Below, in pieces: positions 25,453 through 50,429 of a stretch of DNA of 60,318 bases. Made by a program: the position numbers and the translations under genes. Origin of the DNA: Agathobaculum sp. (lineage in GTDB: Bacteria > Bacillota > Clostridia > Oscillospirales > Butyricicoccaceae); NCBI RefSeq assembly GCF_022775115.1, contig NZ_JALFLA010000052.1, forward strand, positions 1 through 60,318. The letters run 5' to 3'. How positions within the stretch are numbered: the stretch's first letter is position 1; every line of letters starts with the position of its first letter. A model generated the notes under the pieces. That model was not told the origin of the DNA. It saw only the letters and a program-made list of their open reading frames with translations, and did not search any database.

Positions 25453-25470
25453 CCTGCCGCGCGGTCTTTC

Positions 25471-25497
25471 ACCGCGGCGCGCGGCGGCGCATAGACT
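25471..25497 (+). promoter_or_regulatory. SigK-like mother-cell promoter for dpaA
   Basis: AC (25471-25472), a 17-bp spacer, then CATAGACT (25490-25497) matches the sporulation sigmaK pattern AC-N16/17-CATANNNT. It lies about 20 bp upstream of the dpaA start codon and its AAAGGAGG. Dipicolinate synthase is a late mother-cell product in spore formers, so the match is meaningful, although sigmaE and sigmaK sites overlap in sequence. Confidence 0.6.
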
Positions 25498-25517: not shown

Positions 25518-25913
25518 ATGAACAAATCGGCGACTCTCGCGGTCGTCGGCGGCGATGTGCGGCAGGCGCATCTGGCCGCGCTGCTGCACGCCGGGGGACA
25601 CGAGGTGCGCACCTTTGCACTCGAGCGCCACCCGGTCGCGGGCTGCGACCCGATTGGCGACGCGCGCAGCGGCTTCGCAGGCGTGCAGGCCGTCATACTG
25701 CCCCTGCCCGTGCAGCACGGCGACGGCCAGCTCAACGCGCCGCTGTCCAACGCGCCGCATCCGCTTTCCGATGTGCTGGACGCCATCCCGGCCGGCACGC
25801 TGACGCTGGCCGGCGCGGTACCGTTCTGGCTGCACGCGCGCGCCGTGCAGAACGAGCTGCACCTGATCGACTACTTATCCCGCGACGAGCTTGCGATACG
25901 CAACGCGGTACCT
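25518..25913 (+). CDS. dpaA: Dipicolinate synthase subunit A, 5' half (interrupted)
   Basis: These 132 codons are the N-terminal domain of DpaA (SpoVFA), which with DpaB makes dipicolinic acid for the spore core. ATG 25518 has AAAGGAGG at 25503-25510. The sequence shows TLAVVGGDVRQAHLAALLHAGG, LPLPVQHGDGQLN, and DYLSRDELAIRNAVP, where it stops matching the family. As it stands, the frame runs on into unrelated sequence to a stop at 26114. The missing Rossmann half is intact at 28401-28880. Joining 25913 to 28401 gives one 291-codon frame through ...NAVP-TCEGAIQ.... The gene is therefore split by the element, not degraded. Confidence 0.92.
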
Positions 25914-25930
25914 GCTTTGTTGGCGAAACG
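25890..25930. other. Left junction of the dpaA element (attL-like)
   Basis: The dpaA side ends AACGCGG, then the shared core TACCT at 25909-25913, then the element arm GCTTT-GTTGGCG, with GTTGGCG at 25919-25925. GTTGGCG is the exact reverse complement of CGCCAAC at 28385-28391 at the other end, so the element ends are inverted repeats around the core. Confidence 0.8.
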
Positions 25931-25956
25931 CCCCGCCGGACAGGCCCGCGCGCAGC

Positions 25957-25990
25957 AAAACGCCCCCGGCGCTGTCGTCCGGGGGCGTGC
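25957..25990 (-). terminator. Terminator of the Spo0A-like gene
   Basis: CGCCCCCGG (25961-25969) pairs with CCGGGGGCG (25979-25987). On the minus strand the stem ends GGGGGCGTTTTGC. It lies between the regulator's stop codon and the left junction and would limit leftward antisense transcription into the dpaA 5' half. Confidence 0.75.
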
Positions 25991-26029
25991 TTTCTGTTTG
26001 CTGCTCGCGGCGCGGTCGGCAGGCGGCGG

Positions 26030-26845
26030 TCACTCCGCGTGCCCGGTGTGCACAAATTCGGACAGAATACTGCAAAACGTGCTGCTGCCGATGCTGCTGT
26101 GCTCATTTGCGTAATTCTGGCCGAAGTACTTGGCCAGAATGGCCGGGTCGCTGCGCGTCCAGATCGTGTTGACCGCGTAGCGCACCACCCGCTCGACGTT
26201 TTTCTGCGTTGTATGGTAGGTCTTGGCGATTGCCGGATAGATATCCTTGGTCACACCGCTGTGCATCTGGCTGCTGAGCAGGATGGCGTCGATTATGTAC
26301 AGCCGCCCCTTTTTGCCAAGCTTTACGCCAAACTCCTGTACGATCGCCGAGGCGCGCCGTCTGGCCGCAAGGCGCGCGGCCTCCTCCTGTCTCACCCGGC
26401 TGGTCTGCATCCACAGCCGCAGCTGCTCATACAGCGCCTGCGGGCGCACCGGCTTGCGCATCACATGCCCGACCTCGAGCAGCTCGCACTCCTCGCAGAT
26501 CTGCGAACCCATGAACGCACTGAGCAGCAAAATGCCCACCCGCCGGTCAAAGGCGCGCACCCGCGCGGCGGCTGTCAGGCCGTCCACATGCGGCAGCTCG
26601 GTGTCCAGCACGATCAGTGCCGGCCGGCATTCCCGCACCCACTCGGCCACATGGTCTCCGTCAGTCGTCGTGCCGACCAACGCAAGCTCCTCATCCGCCA
26701 CCGCCAGCTCGCACACCTGCCGCAGCGTGTTTGCATCCGCCACAGCCATAAATACGCGGAATTTACGCTCCTGCTCTATGATTGCCCGTCCCTCCCCTTG
26801 CTTTCGCTCGGCATATTGTACTTTCCTTGTATTATTTTCACACAT
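26030..26845 (-). CDS. Divergent Spo0A-like response regulator inside the dpaA element
   Basis: The N-terminal receiver domain (about residues 28-145 from this start) has the beta-1 run KFRVFMAVADAN (Asp37), the phosphoacceptor in LIVLDTELPHVDG (Asp81), and Lys131 in VMRKPVRP. The C-terminal domain (about 163-271) matches Spo0A: IVQEFGVKLGKKGRLYIIDAI, GVTKDIYPAIAKTYHTT, the recognition-helix run NVERVVRYAVNTIW, and a tail like Spo0A's NSEF segment. It differs strongly from the usual master Spo0A and lies far from spoIVB, its usual neighbour. The start is uncertain: ATG 26845 has no ribosome-binding site, whereas GGGGAGGG at 26790-26797 points to initiation at ATC 26782 or ATA 26779. ATG 26749 would delete beta-1. 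Confidence 0.82.
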   Translation of the reverse strand: MCENNTRKVQYAERKQGEGRAIIEQERKFRVFMAVADANTLRQVCELAVADEELALVGTTTDGDHVAEWVRECRPALIVLDTELPHVDGLTAAARVRAFDRRVGILLLSAFMGSQICEECELLEVGHVMRKPVRPQALYEQLRLWMQTSRVRQEEAARLAARRRASAIVQEFGVKLGKKGRLYIIDAILLSSQMHSGVTKDIYPAIAKTYHTTQKNVERVVRYAVNTIWTRSDPAILAKYFGQNYANEHSSIGSSTFCSILSEFVHTGHAE

Positions 26846-26890
26846 ATTGTCCGGCCGCGCAAGTGACAGCATTCGATTTTTTTGATGAAA

Positions 26891-26908
26891 TATCGACATT
26901 TACCGACA
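26891..26908 (-). promoter_or_regulatory. Tandem 0A-box-like sites
   Basis: On the minus strand TGTCGGTA (26901-26908) and TGTCGATA (26891-26898) are direct repeats exactly 10 bp apart, one helical turn. The Spo0A box is TGTCGAA; the second copy matches 6 of 7 bases and the first 5 of 7. They lie between the recombinase stop and the Spo0A-like gene, where an autoregulatory or Spo0A-driven promoter would be expected. Confidence 0.55.
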
Positions 26909-26920
26909 AAAACCCACATT

Positions 26921-28222
26921 TCACTCAGGCGGCGAAAATGTCATCCGCGCCCCGCCGCGCAATGCGACCTCGACACACGCCCCCGTAACCGTGATCCCGG
27001 AGACAGCTTCGGCGTACACCTGCTCCGCTTCGAGCAGCTGCGCGAGCAGCCAGTCCTGCCGCGCGATCCAATCCGCCCGCGCCGCGGGCGGTTGACCGCA
27101 CAGCCGCTCGGCTGCGCGCCAATCCGCGCACAGCCCCCGGACAAAACGCCCCCGGTCGGGCAGCGCCGCGTCCAATGTCCGCCGCACGCACGCACGCAGC
27201 CATGCATCCTGCGCCGCCGCGCCCCCGCAATTGCGGCATGACCAGCGCAGCCGTGTGCTGCCGTCCTTGCGCACCGCGCGCCGCGGCAGCAGCGCACGCC
27301 CGCACACGCCGCAGCGTATCCGCCCAGAGCACCAGTAGCGCGCGGAGTGCCGCGTTTTGCCCGCACCACGCCGCGCCAGCTCGCGCTGTGCCTGCTCAAA
27401 CCGCGCACGACTGACGATTGCCTCGTGGTGGCCGCGCAGATAGATGGCCGGCTCCTGCCCCCGGTTGGGTACGCTGCGGTGAGTCAGAAAATCAGGTGTG
27501 CAGGTCTTTTTTTGCAGCAGGTCGCCGCAGTATTTTTCATTGCGCAGCATACGCAGCACCATGGTCGACGACCATATCCCACTTTTCGCGCGCGGCGTGG
27601 GCACACCGCTTTCGGTCAGCTCGCGCGCGATGACGTGCGTGCCTTTGCCCTCATCGAGAAACAACCGGTATACCCGCTGCACGACCGCAGCCTGCGCGGG
27701 GCGCACAGTCAGCACCCCTCCCCGCAGGCGGTAGCCGAACAACGTATCCGCGCCGAACACCACACCGCGCTCCATCGAGCGCCGCTGCCCCCATTTGACA
27801 CGCTCCGAGGTCTTACGGCTCTCCTCCTGCGCCACGCTCGCCATGATGGTCAGACGGAACTCCCCCTCGCCCGCACGGGTATCAATGTTGTCGTTCAGAA
27901 AGAGTACGCCCACGCCCCACGCGGCCAGCTGCCGCGTATAGCCCAACGCATCCATCGTGTTGCGCGCAAAGCGCGAGACCTCTTTGGTCAGGACAAGGTC
28001 AAGCTCGCCCCGCTCGGCCGCCGCGAGCAGCGCGCGGAACTGCACCCGCTTTCTGGTCGAGGTGCCGCTCACGCCCTCGTCCGCCCAGATACCGGCCAGC
28101 GTCCACGTGGGATGCGCGTCGATATACGCCTGAAAGAACTGCTTTTGCGCCGCCAGCGAGTGCAACTGGTCGTCCTGATCGGTCGACACGCGGCAGTATG
28201 CCGCCACACGCAGCCGCGCCAC
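26921..28222 (-). CDS. Large serine recombinase of the dpaA element
   Basis: This 433-residue large serine recombinase should integrate and excise the element. The resolvase domain (about 1-150) has AAYCRVSTDQ with the nucleophile Ser13, and VSRFARNTMDAL. A recombinase domain (about 155-265) follows with GYRLRGG and GIWSSTMVLRMLRNEKYCGD. A zinc-ribbon motif (CSGRIRCGVCGRALL ... CRNCGG) lies near 300-340, then a short C-terminal region. Most relatives, including SpoIVCA, approach 500 residues, so the coiled-coil part is short. The GTG 28222 start is one base after the 37-codon ORF's TGA, so the two are coupled. Confidence 0.93.
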   Translation of the reverse strand: MARLRVAAYCRVSTDQDDQLHSLAAQKQFFQAYIDAHPTWTLAGIWADEGVSGTSTRKRVQFRALLAAAERGELDLVLTKEVSRFARNTMDALGYTRQLAAWGVGVLFLNDNIDTRAGEGEFRLTIMASVAQEESRKTSERVKWGQRRSMERGVVFGADTLFGYRLRGGVLTVRPAQAAVVQRVYRLFLDEGKGTHVIARELTESGVPTPRAKSGIWSSTMVLRMLRNEKYCGDLLQKKTCTPDFLTHRSVPNRGQEPAIYLRGHHEAIVSRARFEQAQRELARRGAGKTRHSARYWCSGRIRCGVCGRALLPRRAVRKDGSTRLRWSCRNCGGAAAQDAWLRACVRRTLDAALPDRGRFVRGLCADWRAAERLCGQPPAARADWIARQDWLLAQLLEAEQVYAEAVSGITVTGACVEVALRGGARMTFSPPE

Positions 28223-28223
28223 C

Positions 28224-28337
28224 TCAGCGCCCCTCCTCGCACAGCGCGCGGTACACCGCCTCGCTTATCCTGCCACCGGCATACAGCGCGCGCAGCAGAC
28301 CACGCCGCACACACGTTTCAAGCCGTTGATTTTGCAT
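28224..28337 (-). CDS. 37-residue protein coupled to the recombinase, candidate directionality factor
   Basis: ATG 28337 follows an excellent GGGAGGTG. The 37-residue product is a basic then amphipathic helical hairpin: ...RRGLLRALYAGGRISEAVYR.... The pattern of helix, Gly-rich turn, I-S/T-E-x-x-Y, helix resembles SHOCT-like small proteins often found next to Firmicute serine recombinases. Its stop is one base before the recombinase GTG. The small size and position suit a recombination directionality factor, as known for SprB and the C. difficile skin system, but that function is a guess. Its upstream region runs into the right junction. Confidence 0.65.
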   Translation of the reverse strand: MQNQRLETCVRRGLLRALYAGGRISEAVYRALCEEGR

Positions 28338-28374
28338 CCGCTCACCTCCCAAAGCATCCTATGCGGCGGCTGCG

Positions 28375-28415
28375 CGGGACAGAACGCCAACGAGCTACCT
28401 ACCTGTGAGGGTGCC
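28375..28415. other. Right junction of the dpaA element (attR-like)
   Basis: The element arm CGCCAAC (28385-28391) is followed by GAGC, the core TACCT (28396-28400) and the resumed dpaA sequence ACCTGTGAGGG. A second TACCT register overlaps at 28400-28404, but joining there would shift the dpaA frame. Only the first register restores it. Confidence 0.8.
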
Positions 28416-28880
28416 ATCCAGCTTGCCATGGAGCAGACCGACCGCACGCTGCAAGGCGCGCGCTGTCTGGTGATCGGCTACGGCCGCATCGGCGCGCTGC
28501 TGGCGCACAAGCTGCGCGCGCTCGACGCCGAGGTGCAGGTTTCCGCGCGTGCAGCGTGCGATTTCGCCCGCATCGAGGCTGCCGGTATGACCGCGCTCGA
28601 CACCCGCCGACTGGCGGGCAAGCTATCCGGCTTTGAGCTGATCTTCAACACCGTACCCGCGCCCGTGCTTGGCGCGGCCGAGCTGGCCGCGCTGGGGCCG
28701 TCCTGTCTCATCATTGATCTGGCGTCGCTGCCCGGCGGCATCGCACCGGACACGCCGCTGCCCACCGGCTGCAAGCTGCTGCACGCACTTTCGCTGCCCG
28801 GGCGAGTCGCGCCGCGCTCGGCCGCGCAGGCCGTGTACGAAACCGTGTGCAACATTCTGCACGAGGAGGGTGTGCTATGA
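28401..28880 (+). CDS. dpaA: Dipicolinate synthase subunit A, 3' half (interrupted)
   Basis: These 159 codons are the NAD(P)-binding half of DpaA. They resume with TCEGAIQLAMEQTDRTLQG, then the Rossmann loop CLVIGYGRIGALLAHKL, LSGFELIFNTVPAPVLG and LIIDLASLPGG, to TGA 28880. In the integrated state the half has no ribosome-binding site or credible start of its own; an ATG at 28326 lies inside the element. The stop overlaps the dpaB start by ATGA. The absence of stops or frameshifts over 480 bp shows it is still under selection, as expected if the gene is rejoined in some cells. Confidence 0.92.
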   Translation, partial: TCEGAIQLAMEQTDRTLQGARCLVIGYGRIGALLAHKLRALDAEVQVSARAACDFARIEAAGMTALDTRRLAGKLSGFELIFNTVPAPVLGAAELAALGPSCLIIDLASLPGGIAPDTPLPTGCKLLHALSLPGRVAPRSAAQAVYETVCNILHEEGVL

Positions 28881-29464
28881 CTTCGCTCCGCATCGGCTTT
28901 GCGCTCACCGGCTCGTTCTGCACGTTTGCGCGCGTGCTGCGCGTGATCGACACGCTTGTGCAGCAGGGGCACAGCGTGACACCCATCCTGTCCTTCCACG
29001 CGGGCGCGCTCGACACCCGTTTCGGCGCCGCGCAGGAGTGGCGCGACAAGCTCCACCGCCTGACCGGCCGCCCCCCTATCGACAGCATCGTGGCTGCCGA
29101 GCCGATCGGTCCCAAGGCACTGTTTGACGTGCTGGCGGTCGCGCCCTGCACGGGCAACACGCTTGCCAAGCTCGCCCACGGCATAACGGACACGCCGGTG
29201 ACCATGGCGGTCAAGAGCCACCTGCGCGGCGAGCGGCCGGTCGTGCTTGCCGTTTCCACCAACGATGGCCTGTCGGGCAGCGCGGCCAATCTAGGCACGC
29301 TGCTGGTCAGAAAGCATTGCTACTTCGTGCCGCTGCGGCAGGACGCGCCACGCGCCAAGCCCCGCTCGCTCGTGGCCGAGATGGAGCTGCTGCCGGATGC
29401 CATCGAGGCTGCACTGGCCGGCCGTCAGCTTCAGCCGCTGCTGCTCGCGCCGGGCGATGGCTGA
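28877..29464 (+). CDS. dpaB: Dipicolinate synthase subunit B
   Basis: DpaB (SpoVFB) is the flavoprotein-like subunit that completes dipicolinate synthase in the mother cell. The 195-residue protein begins TSLRIGFALTGSFCTFARVL and has VAPCTGNTLAKLAHGITDTPV and STNDGLSGSAANLGTLL, all family-typical. ATG 28877 overlaps the dpaA stop. With the element in place, the dpaA promoter is 2.5 kb away and transcripts would have to cross opposing genes and a terminator. dpaB expression therefore probably also depends on excision. A terminator follows. Confidence 0.95.
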   Translation: MTSLRIGFALTGSFCTFARVLRVIDTLVQQGHSVTPILSFHAGALDTRFGAAQEWRDKLHRLTGRPPIDSIVAAEPIGPKALFDVLAVAPCTGNTLAKLAHGITDTPVTMAVKSHLRGERPVVLAVSTNDGLSGSAANLGTLLVRKHCYFVPLRQDAPRAKPRSLVAEMELLPDAIEAALAGRQLQPLLLAPGDG

Positions 29465-49280: not shown

Positions 49281-50429
49281 TCAATTTGTCTGGTTTTCCT
49301 GCGCGCCGCAGAACAGCGCGCCCCACAAACCGGAAAACAGCTCGCCCAGCCCCTTGCACTCGACCGCCTCGGCCGCGACCAGTGGCACGCGCAGCACGAC
49401 CTGTCCGTCGCTCAGCACGGTCAGCTCACCCAGCGGCTGCCCCTGCTCAATGGGCGCGCGGACCGACTCCGGCAGGTCGATCTGCGGCTCCAATGCGGCG
49501 GCCTTGGACTTTTCGATGATGAGCGAGCCGCTGTCCTCCATCTGCGGCTGCACAAACGCCGCGCGTCCCAGCGTGACCGGTACCGGCGGCAGCAGGTCAT
49601 CCGGCAGCGTGTAGGCCGTAAAGTTTGCAAAGCCGTAATTGAGCAGCGCGGTCGCGTCGGCCATGCGGTTTTCCTTGGTCGGTGCGGCCATGACGATGGC
49701 GACAAGGCTCAGTCCGTCCCGCTCGGCCGTGGCCGAGATGCAAAAGCCCGCCTCAGAGATATAGCCGGTTTTCAGTCCGGTCAAGCCCTGATAGCTTTTT
49801 AGCATCTTATTGGTGTTGGCCAACGAGAATTTGCCGCCCCGGATGCTGTCCATCCAAATGCGCGTATAGTCGAGTATCTTCGGGTGGCGCAGCAGCTCGC
49901 ACGAGATCAACGCCAGATCGTGCGCCGTGGTCATGGTTTTCTGCCCCATGCCATCCAGCCCGTTGGCGTTGATGAACTGCGTGCCGGTGCAGCCCAGCTC
50001 GGCCGCGCGGGTGTTCATCCGCTCGACAAAAGCGGCCTCCGTGCCGGCCAGATGCTCGGCCACGGCCACGGCGCAGTCGTTTGCCGAGCCGACCGCGATC
50101 GCCTTGAGCATCTCGTCGAGCGTGAGCTGCTCGCCTGGTTCAAGCCAGATCTGCGTGCCGCCCATCGAGCAGGCATACTCGCTGCCCGTTATCATCGTGT
50201 CGAGCGAGACCTCGCCGCGGTCGAGCGCCTCCATGGTCAGCAGCATGGTCATGATTTTGGTCACCGAGGCAGGCTGCAGCGGCTCATCGGCGTTATAGGA
50301 ATAAAGCTCCTGTCCGTTCGCGGCGTACAGCGCAGCCGATTTGGCGTACAGCGTACCCATCTCGGGCAACGCCAGCGCCGGCTGCGCCAGCAGCGCAAGA
50401 CAAAGCGCAAGACATACGATCTTTCTCAT
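49281..50429 (-). CDS. D-alanyl-D-alanine carboxypeptidase (DacF-like)
   Basis: A 382-residue penicillin-binding protein that trims the terminal D-Ala of cell-wall stem peptides. It has a signal peptide (IVCLALCLALLAQPALA), SxxK in PASVTKIMTMLLTMEAL, SxN in GSANDCAVAVAEHL, and KTG in TGLKTGYISEAGFC, then a beta-rich C-terminal domain (about 270-382). ATG 50429 follows AAAAGGAGG; the longer frame to 50489 lacks a site. In spore formers DacF-type enzymes shape cortex or vegetative wall. The context does not decide which. Confidence 0.93.
   Translation of the reverse strand: MRKIVCLALCLALLAQPALALPEMGTLYAKSAALYAANGQELYSYNADEPLQPASVTKIMTMLLTMEALDRGEVSLDTMITGSEYACSMGGTQIWLEPGEQLTLDEMLKAIAVGSANDCAVAVAEHLAGTEAAFVERMNTRAAELGCTGTQFINANGLDGMGQKTMTTAHDLALISCELLRHPKILDYTRIWMDSIRGGKFSLANTNKMLKSYQGLTGLKTGYISEAGFCISATAERDGLSLVAIVMAAPTKENRMADATALLNYGFANFTAYTLPDDLLPPVPVTLGRAAFVQPQMEDSGSLIIEKSKAAALEPQIDLPESVRAPIEQGQPLGELTVLSDGQVVLRVPLVAAEAVECKGLGELFSGLWGALFCGAQENQTN

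Follow-up and report, generated by a model that had tools for sequence, protein, structure and literature searches.

The window analysed here, a stretch of 60,318 nucleotides from Agathobaculum sp. (family Butyricicoccaceae), carries the dipicolinate synthase gene dpaA in two parts, which are separated by an element of 2,487 bp (25914-28400) at the codon for Pro132. We read this element as a minimal skin-like switch that interrupts dpaA and would be excised in the mother cell during sporulation, and we assign this reading, which is drawn from genome comparison, a probability of roughly 85%. The window makes up contig 49 of a draft genome of 2.19 Mb in 88 contigs, 95.7% complete. The 5' half of dpaA (25518-25913, plus strand, codons 1-132) matches the domain DpaA_N (PF16924, 71 bits) and the N-terminal part of the models NF006162 and TIGR02853. 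The 3' half (28401-28880, plus strand, codons 133-291 and the stop codon; NF006162, 170.8 bits) takes up these models from positions 132 and 129 onward, respectively. The PF16924 match stops at residue 120, and the break thus lies after the N-terminal domain. Joining of the flanks gives an in-frame DpaA of 291 amino acids without a stop, in which the ATGA overlap at 28877 with the intact downstream gene dpaB (28877-29464, plus strand; TIGR02852, 245.3 bits, cut-off 229) is kept. An earlier note on this DNA had described both halves, the stop-free joined gene and a large serine recombinase within the 2,487 bp; the profile matches, the joined frame and the Resolvase and Recombinase domains, both over their cut-offs, reproduce these statements. 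Two further genes of the element had been missed, an open reading frame (ORF) of 37 amino acids and a Spo0A-type response regulator of about 0.9 kb; all three genes are oriented against dpaA. In a protein search of the window assembly no second dpaA was found, as the note had expected, the matches being the two halves and a weak one (E = 4.6e-6) to another protein.

A search for DpaA as a single protein covered 87 genomes of the family, 25 of which belong to the genus. Within the genus, 12 genomes have dpaA split at codon 132/133, eight have it whole and in five it was not found, the last giving no match or weak matches only and some of them being 78-90% complete. Relatives with an uninterrupted dpaA across this point, which had been predicted, thus exist. 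The same codon is split in four family genomes of other genera (G030, G050, G054 and G081; G050 is Intestinibacillus massiliensis), and since 16 of the 87 genomes share the split, it is not a matter of chance. Both junctions could be read in 15 of them; in G081 the 5' junction alone was read, the recombinase being on another contig. The inserts of the family measure 2,487, 2,529, 3,253, 3,696, 3,915, 4,243, 4,661, 6,556 and 9,322 bp, with larger ones of 23.2 kb in G023 and about 45 kb in G004. Among 80 recombinase loci, parts of dpaA adjoin the recombinase in 15, five of which are family genomes already counted, and L069 was added later. Loci outside the family include Flavonifractor, Flintibacter muris and an uncultured Intestinimonas, and inserts there with both halves on one contig are about 20, 21 and 43 kb long. 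In a sample of 394 genomes of the order, DpaA was matched at E <= 1e-10 in 326, and at least six non-family genomes among the matches listed have two DpaA matches (G148, G247, G254, G257, G259 and G420). On a DpaA tree of 26 rows split and whole genes are intermixed with at least five changes, which indicates that the element comes and goes. The earlier proposal of a much smaller version of skin acting on dpaA is therefore supported, the window element being the smallest here, but it does not describe a one-off: the element belongs to a family of dpaA inserts.

The position of the exchange was narrowed by comparison of both junctions in the 15 species. The sites attL (25905-25928, plus strand) and attR (28380-28403, plus strand) have TACCT in common in the window, as the earlier note had seen and taken as the joint. 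The sole positions at which attL and attR agree in every one of the 15 species are the CC of the Pro132 codon (25911-25912 in attL, 28398-28399 in attR), so that TACCT exceeds the conserved core and this dinucleotide is the putative crossover. The third base of the codon differs between attL and attR in four of the 15 species. Because proline is encoded by CCN, an exchange at CC leaves the protein unchanged. Sites of serine recombinases are symmetric about a crossover of 2 bp. Of ten centres tried on the reconstructed attP, CC gave the best inverted repeat in 14 of 15 species, with 19 of 26 positions matching in G004 and G054, 15 in G000 and 14 in G022 and G030.

Both halves of dpaA are kept under purifying selection and are not decaying, in agreement with the earlier claim that they are undamaged and selected; the measures refer to the halves from the family. 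None of the 14 full 5' halves contains a stop, and the 3' half comprises exactly 159 codons in all 15 split species read. Of 2,000 copies simulated under neutrality, 7.7% were still free of stops after 0.2 substitutions per site, and 0.2% after 0.5. The median ratio of nonsynonymous to synonymous substitution rates (omega, method NG86) is 0.146 for the 5' half (11 species) and 0.157 for the 3' half (12 species) in split genus species, and 0.109 and 0.102 for the N and C parts in the eight whole-gene species, all of them rough values since the median synonymous distance (dS) is 1.0-1.6. The recombinase has an omega of 0.16 (12 sequences) and the regulator one of 0.37.

The large serine recombinase (433 amino acids; 26921-28222, minus strand) matches PF00239 with 110.7 bits and PF07508 with 83.5 bits and falls to the integrases of PHROG 95; its zinc-ribbon match of 19.3 bits is under the cut-off of 25.3. 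A quick tree was built from 47 selected rows, L120 not being among them. Apart from L118 and G081, which lie outside it, the dpaA-inserted recombinases group essentially in a single clade (97% SH-aLRT), whose 25 rows, with L069 traced, all come from split dpaA genes. The start of the recombinase gene is preceded, at a distance of one nucleotide, by the end of the 37-codon ORF (28224-28337, minus strand). In the 13 elements whose recombinase operon is near attR this small ORF has 37-46 residues and abuts or closely precedes the recombinase, and it could be aligned in 21 of 23 elements aligned. In the skin element of Bacillus subtilis the recombination directionality factor (RDF) Skr is a 64-amino-acid ORF which overlaps the start of spoIVCA and lies downstream of its sigma-E promoter (excerpt of PMC6957869). 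By its position and by economy, the small ORF is the best candidate for the RDF. The regulator is not universal: as a general directionality factor the latter was ruled out by its presence in seven of 12 genus elements (G000, G001, G002, G008, G012, G013 and G024).

A close phage relative of the recombinase was not found in a scan of IMG/VR, which gave three relatives at 37-39%. A phage source was also rejected among 385 phage records, the best of which (55.5%) is an unannotated 4.4-kb fecal scaffold. Recombinase relatives from Lachnospiraceae (about 55%) were set aside, no dpaA being present in the flanks fetched. The loci of the sister recombinases (L076-L136, Lachnospiraceae and others) have a small upstream ORF in common and likewise show no dpaA in the fetched flanks; 14 loci of this sister group carry a toxin-like gene (PemK-type by eye) farther upstream.

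The operon of small ORF and recombinase is headed by a sigma-E-like promoter, TTCTGT-N15-CATAGGAT (28356-28384, minus strand), which resembles TTCTAC-N15-CATAGATT, the form of the spoIIID promoters in the genus. spoIIID and spoIIIAA are sigma-E genes and served as positive control: CATANNNT was found upstream of spoIIID in 20 of 21 and of spoIIIAA in 22 of 23 loci, with -35 boxes that are TTCTAC-like and GCATAT-like. Used were 21 of 23 strong spoIIID loci (without L173 and the fragment L188) and 23 of 25 spoIIIAA loci (without L202 and the partial L215), and all these matches are below the curated model cut-offs; spoIVA was dropped as a control since it seems to lie within an operon there. From 38 promoters of these loci (18 + 20) a sigma-E matrix was built, on which the window promoter scores 13.9, a value that 0.27% of 4,820 random windows reach. 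In each of the 13 attR-linked elements, CATANNNT lies 26-34 nt ahead of the small ORF, the distance between operon and attR being 63-87 nt (294 nt in G004). As a control, the box stands at such a distance for four of 72 Shine-Dalgarno-backed ORF starts of the window, dpaA among the four. The 13 promoters are of two types, one with TTCTGT/TTCTGC-N15-CATA (G000, G008, G012, G013 and G024) and one with a GCATAT-like box and a spacer of N15-16 in the other eight, of which G001 (GAATAC) and G050 (GCATGG) are the poorest. Their matrix scores of 8.3-21.3 are attained by 0-1.8% of the random windows. At the level of motifs, recombinase and putative RDF would accordingly stand under mother-cell sigma control in 13 of 13 attR-linked elements. 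Ahead of dpaA itself the placement of the box in family genomes points to a candidate promoter TTCACC-N16-CATAGACT (25468-25497, plus strand), of a type which we take to be sigma-K-like. Of the 27 family genomes examined, 26 have CATANNNT 26-33 nt ahead of dpaA, and G006 has it at -60; in most cases CACC or a variant of it precedes the box. The sigma-E matrix gave uneven scores of 2.1-15.0 on these 27 promoters, which fits another sigma factor without demonstrating one.

The third gene of the element encodes the Spo0A-type response regulator (26030-26899, minus strand), which matches PF00072 with 49 bits and PF08769 with 70-72 bits. Its match to the Spo0A equivalog model TIGR02875 (102 bits) is below the curated cut-off of 200, and the host's stronger Spo0A_C match (157 bits) lies on another contig (C52); judged by these profiles, the regulator is a Spo0A paralogue. 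It keeps what we take to be the acceptor Asp, the RKP lysine and, in VERxxRY, the VERxxR helix, and its acidic pair is degenerate. The seven best matches to the regulator in the 87 family genomes (144-641 bits) are all located inside dpaA elements; the next ones, of at most 136 bits, are Spo0A-like proteins taken as canonical, and some genomes have further distant paralogues. Four of the seven matches show internal stops. Since open frames of 247-252 amino acids were seen, we think that these stops are an artefact of aligning the N-terminal extension of the window protein upstream of their starts.

A putative sigma-A-like promoter of the regulator, TTGCGC-N17-GAAAAT (26834-26862, minus strand), was assigned by eye and is unscored; by eye, all seven regulator-bearing elements have a similar arrangement of a TTG-type box, N17 and an A-rich box. 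A pair scan revealed tandem 0A boxes, TGTCGGTAAA-TGTCGATA (26891-26908, minus strand), and such boxes, exactly 10 bp apart, lie upstream of the regulator in seven of the seven elements having the gene. No tandem pair was found in the other element stretches scanned, which comprised some incomplete elements and parts of the regulator-free elements of G022 and G004, nor in 245,912 control strand-positions. Elsewhere in the window there are two looser pairs. Perfect pairs are rare, with 0-5 per genome and 45 in 25 genomes versus nine for the reversed control pattern. By coordinate comparison, perfect pairs with 10-bp steps stand just upstream of spo0A in 11 other genus genomes, which suggests autoregulation of spo0A in this genus; the 400 nt before the aligned spo0A start of the window genome gave no match to the 0A box form TGTCRA. 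From the tandem boxes and the perfect pairs ahead of spo0A, the regulator gene appears to be wired like spo0A itself. As a guess at its role, the regulator probably ties the element to the entry into sporulation or alters this entry.

The observed split, the conserved att sites, the selected halves, the promoter-like signals and their recurrence can be joined into one course of events, in which we infer the use of sigma-E and sigma-K, the function of the small ORF as RDF, the excision, its timing and the cell type. In growing cells and in the chromosome of the spore the element would sit in dpaA and block DpaA. After asymmetric division, sigma-E of the mother cell would transcribe the small ORF and the serine recombinase. 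With the product of the small ORF as directionality factor, the recombinase would cross attL with attR at the CC of Pro132 and free a circle of 2,487 bp. The sigma-K-type promoter would later drive the whole dpaA, dipicolinate would be made and the spore genome would retain the element.

Several observations weigh against this mother-cell switch. No circle junction was found in the assembly, in which attL and attR alone are present, and no excised form was thus seen. The sigma factors are assigned by motifs, and the 13 recombinase promoters share descent. In elements of other layout, the scan of which left out G030 and G081, CATANNNT is absent from the 330 nt scanned in L065 (G054), L068, L069, L075 and L120, lies no nearer than -230 in L067, L070, L073, L074 and L118, and stands at -81, -87 and -116 in L071, L072 and L138, respectively. 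L075 and L138 have a small ORF that is broken or mis-seeded, and in L071 and L072 none was located. The inverted repeat of attP is weak in the remaining species (7-12 of 26 positions), and split dpaA has a slightly higher omega, rough at the dS given above, than whole dpaA. The 5' half of G081 spans two frames and hence seems frameshifted. Finally, the regulator of the window seems to be without a canonical start codon: the putative promoter lies downstream of the listed ATG or overlaps it, and alignment with relatives places the start at 26782 (26768-26782), on an ATC for which G012 has an ATG at equal distance from a conserved arginine. This ATC may represent either a weak start or an incipient loss.

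Some of these points would also suit an ordinary mobile element of the integrative kind, whose loss or retention would be random, by phase variation or in horizontal transfer, with the repair of dpaA as a by-product not timed by development. The intermixing of split and whole genes on the DpaA tree, the varied cargo of larger inserts (DarT/macro, type I restriction) and the recombinases outside the attR-linked set, mostly without a near CATANNNT box, are what such an element would leave behind. It would give no reason for a sigma-E-like promoter on the recombinase operon of all 13 attR-linked elements, no transfer genes are present among the ORFs of the 2.5-kb elements, and dipicolinate is produced in the mother cell late in sporulation (excerpt of PMC5629000), so that we regard this explanation as unlikely. 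Very improbable is a dead insertion, by which dpaA was lost and its halves are now decaying. The absence of dpaA from five of 25 genus genomes may mean that its loss is tolerated, and the apparent frameshift in G081 points in the same direction; the stop-free 5' halves and the constant length of the 3' halves, to be compared with the few neutral copies that stay open, the omega of about 0.15 for the halves, that of the recombinase and the conserved att sites all contradict decay.

A split enzyme, the halves of which are translated separately and act together, would account for the conservation of both halves and for a break beyond the N-terminal domain. This idea is scarcely credible, as no Shine-Dalgarno-backed start precedes the 3' half in any of the 15 split species (G030 and G004 have one within it) and the 5' frame extends past the joint by 5 to 386 codons. 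An assembly chimera might be suspected in a draft of this kind, the more so as G008, G011, G022, G024 and G030 have the halves on separate contigs or a broken half; its probability is close to nil, given the same junctions in 15 assemblies, including a contig of 3.2 Mb (G001) and the isolate Intestinibacillus massiliensis.

With respect to a prophage origin, no phage structural or packaging gene is found among the three genes of the window element, and no structural or packaging PHROG was matched in ten proteins sampled (nine from four inserts and the window recombinase). The cargo of the larger inserts includes, in G023 (L033-L034), a type IV pilus operon together with a MATE protein, in G096 a DarT/macro pair and genes of type I restriction, and in G093 a dynamin-like GTPase. 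Tentatively, and with rather more doubt than confidence in the whole, dpaA of gut Oscillospirales may be pictured as a long-lived home of self-contained switches. The smallest would consist of a recombinase, a directionality peptide and a full-length Spo0A paralogue of its own, would listen at three steps (early through Spo0A boxes, midway through sigma-E and through sigma-K on the interrupted gene) and might itself fix the time of the host's commitment to sporulation. Larger ones would park genes for pili, polysaccharides and defence, kept by the spore and discarded by the mother cell.

The skin element of B. subtilis, with about 48 kb, is far larger than the dpaA element and to our knowledge has no Spo0A paralogue; the dpaA element is the smallest such element we know of. 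The class of mechanism is known, and its target gene, minimal size, own Spo0A paralogue and spread in gut Oscillospirales appear to be new. The comparisons below draw on excerpts of the papers cited. Like the dpaA element, skin of B. subtilis splits a mother-cell gene and has a serine recombinase with a small ORF directly upstream; its recombinase is under a sigma-E promoter, the small ORF acts as RDF and excision restores the gene, as we propose for the dpaA element (PMC6957869, PMC5025042). Unlike it, skin splits sigK and is prophage-derived. The skin of Clostridioides difficile (CD1231/CD1234) shares the serine recombinase and has an RDF controlled by sigma-E and SpoIIID and excision in the mother cell, to which the putative RDF and the proposed excision of the dpaA element would correspond, but is located in sigK, has a constitutive recombinase and comprises 19 genes (PMC5025042). 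The element vfbin from Bacillus weihenstephanensis hits the gene of the other dipicolinate synthase subunit (spoVFB = dpaB); vfbin differs in lying in subunit B, in a Bacillus, and is termed prophage-like (PMC10747680, PMC6957869). The element gin in gerE of Bacillus cereus is likewise non-phage and uses serine recombinases, and its gene is restored in sporulation, as we propose for dpaA; it measures 28.6 kb, with 31 genes and three recombinases, and interrupts another gene (PMC5595907). yin of Clostridium botulinum is also a serine recombinase element in a sporulation gene and has a putative RDF with a putative sigma-K promoter, but is prophage-like, located in yabG and termed unique to one strain (PMC10747680). 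Phage-carried spo0A homologues similarly place a Spo0A DNA-binding domain on mobile DNA; according to the excerpt they are without a receiver and are therefore a different thing from the regulator of the dpaA element, which has a receiver and tandem 0A boxes and lies in an element without recognised phage genes (PMC10294663). The interrupted sporulation genes named in these excerpts are sigK, spoVFB, spoVR, spsM, kamA, gerE and yabG, and dpaA is not among them. In the open-licence text of PMC, a scope outside which subscription literature such as the original vfbin paper falls, no paper on an interrupted dpaA was found.

Otherwise, programmed DNA excision in spore formers is described from a few cases in Bacillus and Clostridium; in dpaA a single codon is concerned in a number of gut bacteria, cultured and uncultured. 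Intestinibacillus massiliensis Marseille-P3216T, Flintibacter muris DSM 110149 and Flavonifractor sp. An112 are named strains in which the switch could be tested, and a module of two or three genes is small enough for reconstitution in vitro. The Spo0A paralogue may show how an element steers sporulation. If our reading is true, automatic annotation could misname dpaA a pseudogene and the host a poor spore former where the gene is a switch.

Further observations concern dpaA and its inserts. Cargo-island-like large inserts were seen in Flavonifractor sp. An112 (L216-L218), G023 (L033-L034), Flintibacter muris (L219) and G004 (L041/L042/L223), and polysaccharide-like genes were recognised by eye among the cargo of large dpaA inserts. 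In L055 (G052) and L071, dpaA has a second insertion point, which follows the conserved motif IDLASKPGG (about codon 246) and has near it another serine recombinase (31-32% identity). The dpaA gene of L071 has breaks at the first and the second point, and in G053 and G082 the gene is likewise broken close to the second one. The near-complete genus genome G005, a single contig of 4.0 Mb, has spoIVA, spoIIID-like and spoIIIAA-like matches and no dpaA match. Elsewhere in the window, a D-Ala-D-Ala carboxypeptidase-like gene (named by eye; 49281-50429, minus strand) has GCATAGGAT 32 nt ahead of its start; this box resembles that of dpaA in several relatives, and the gene is possibly another one expressed in the mother cell.

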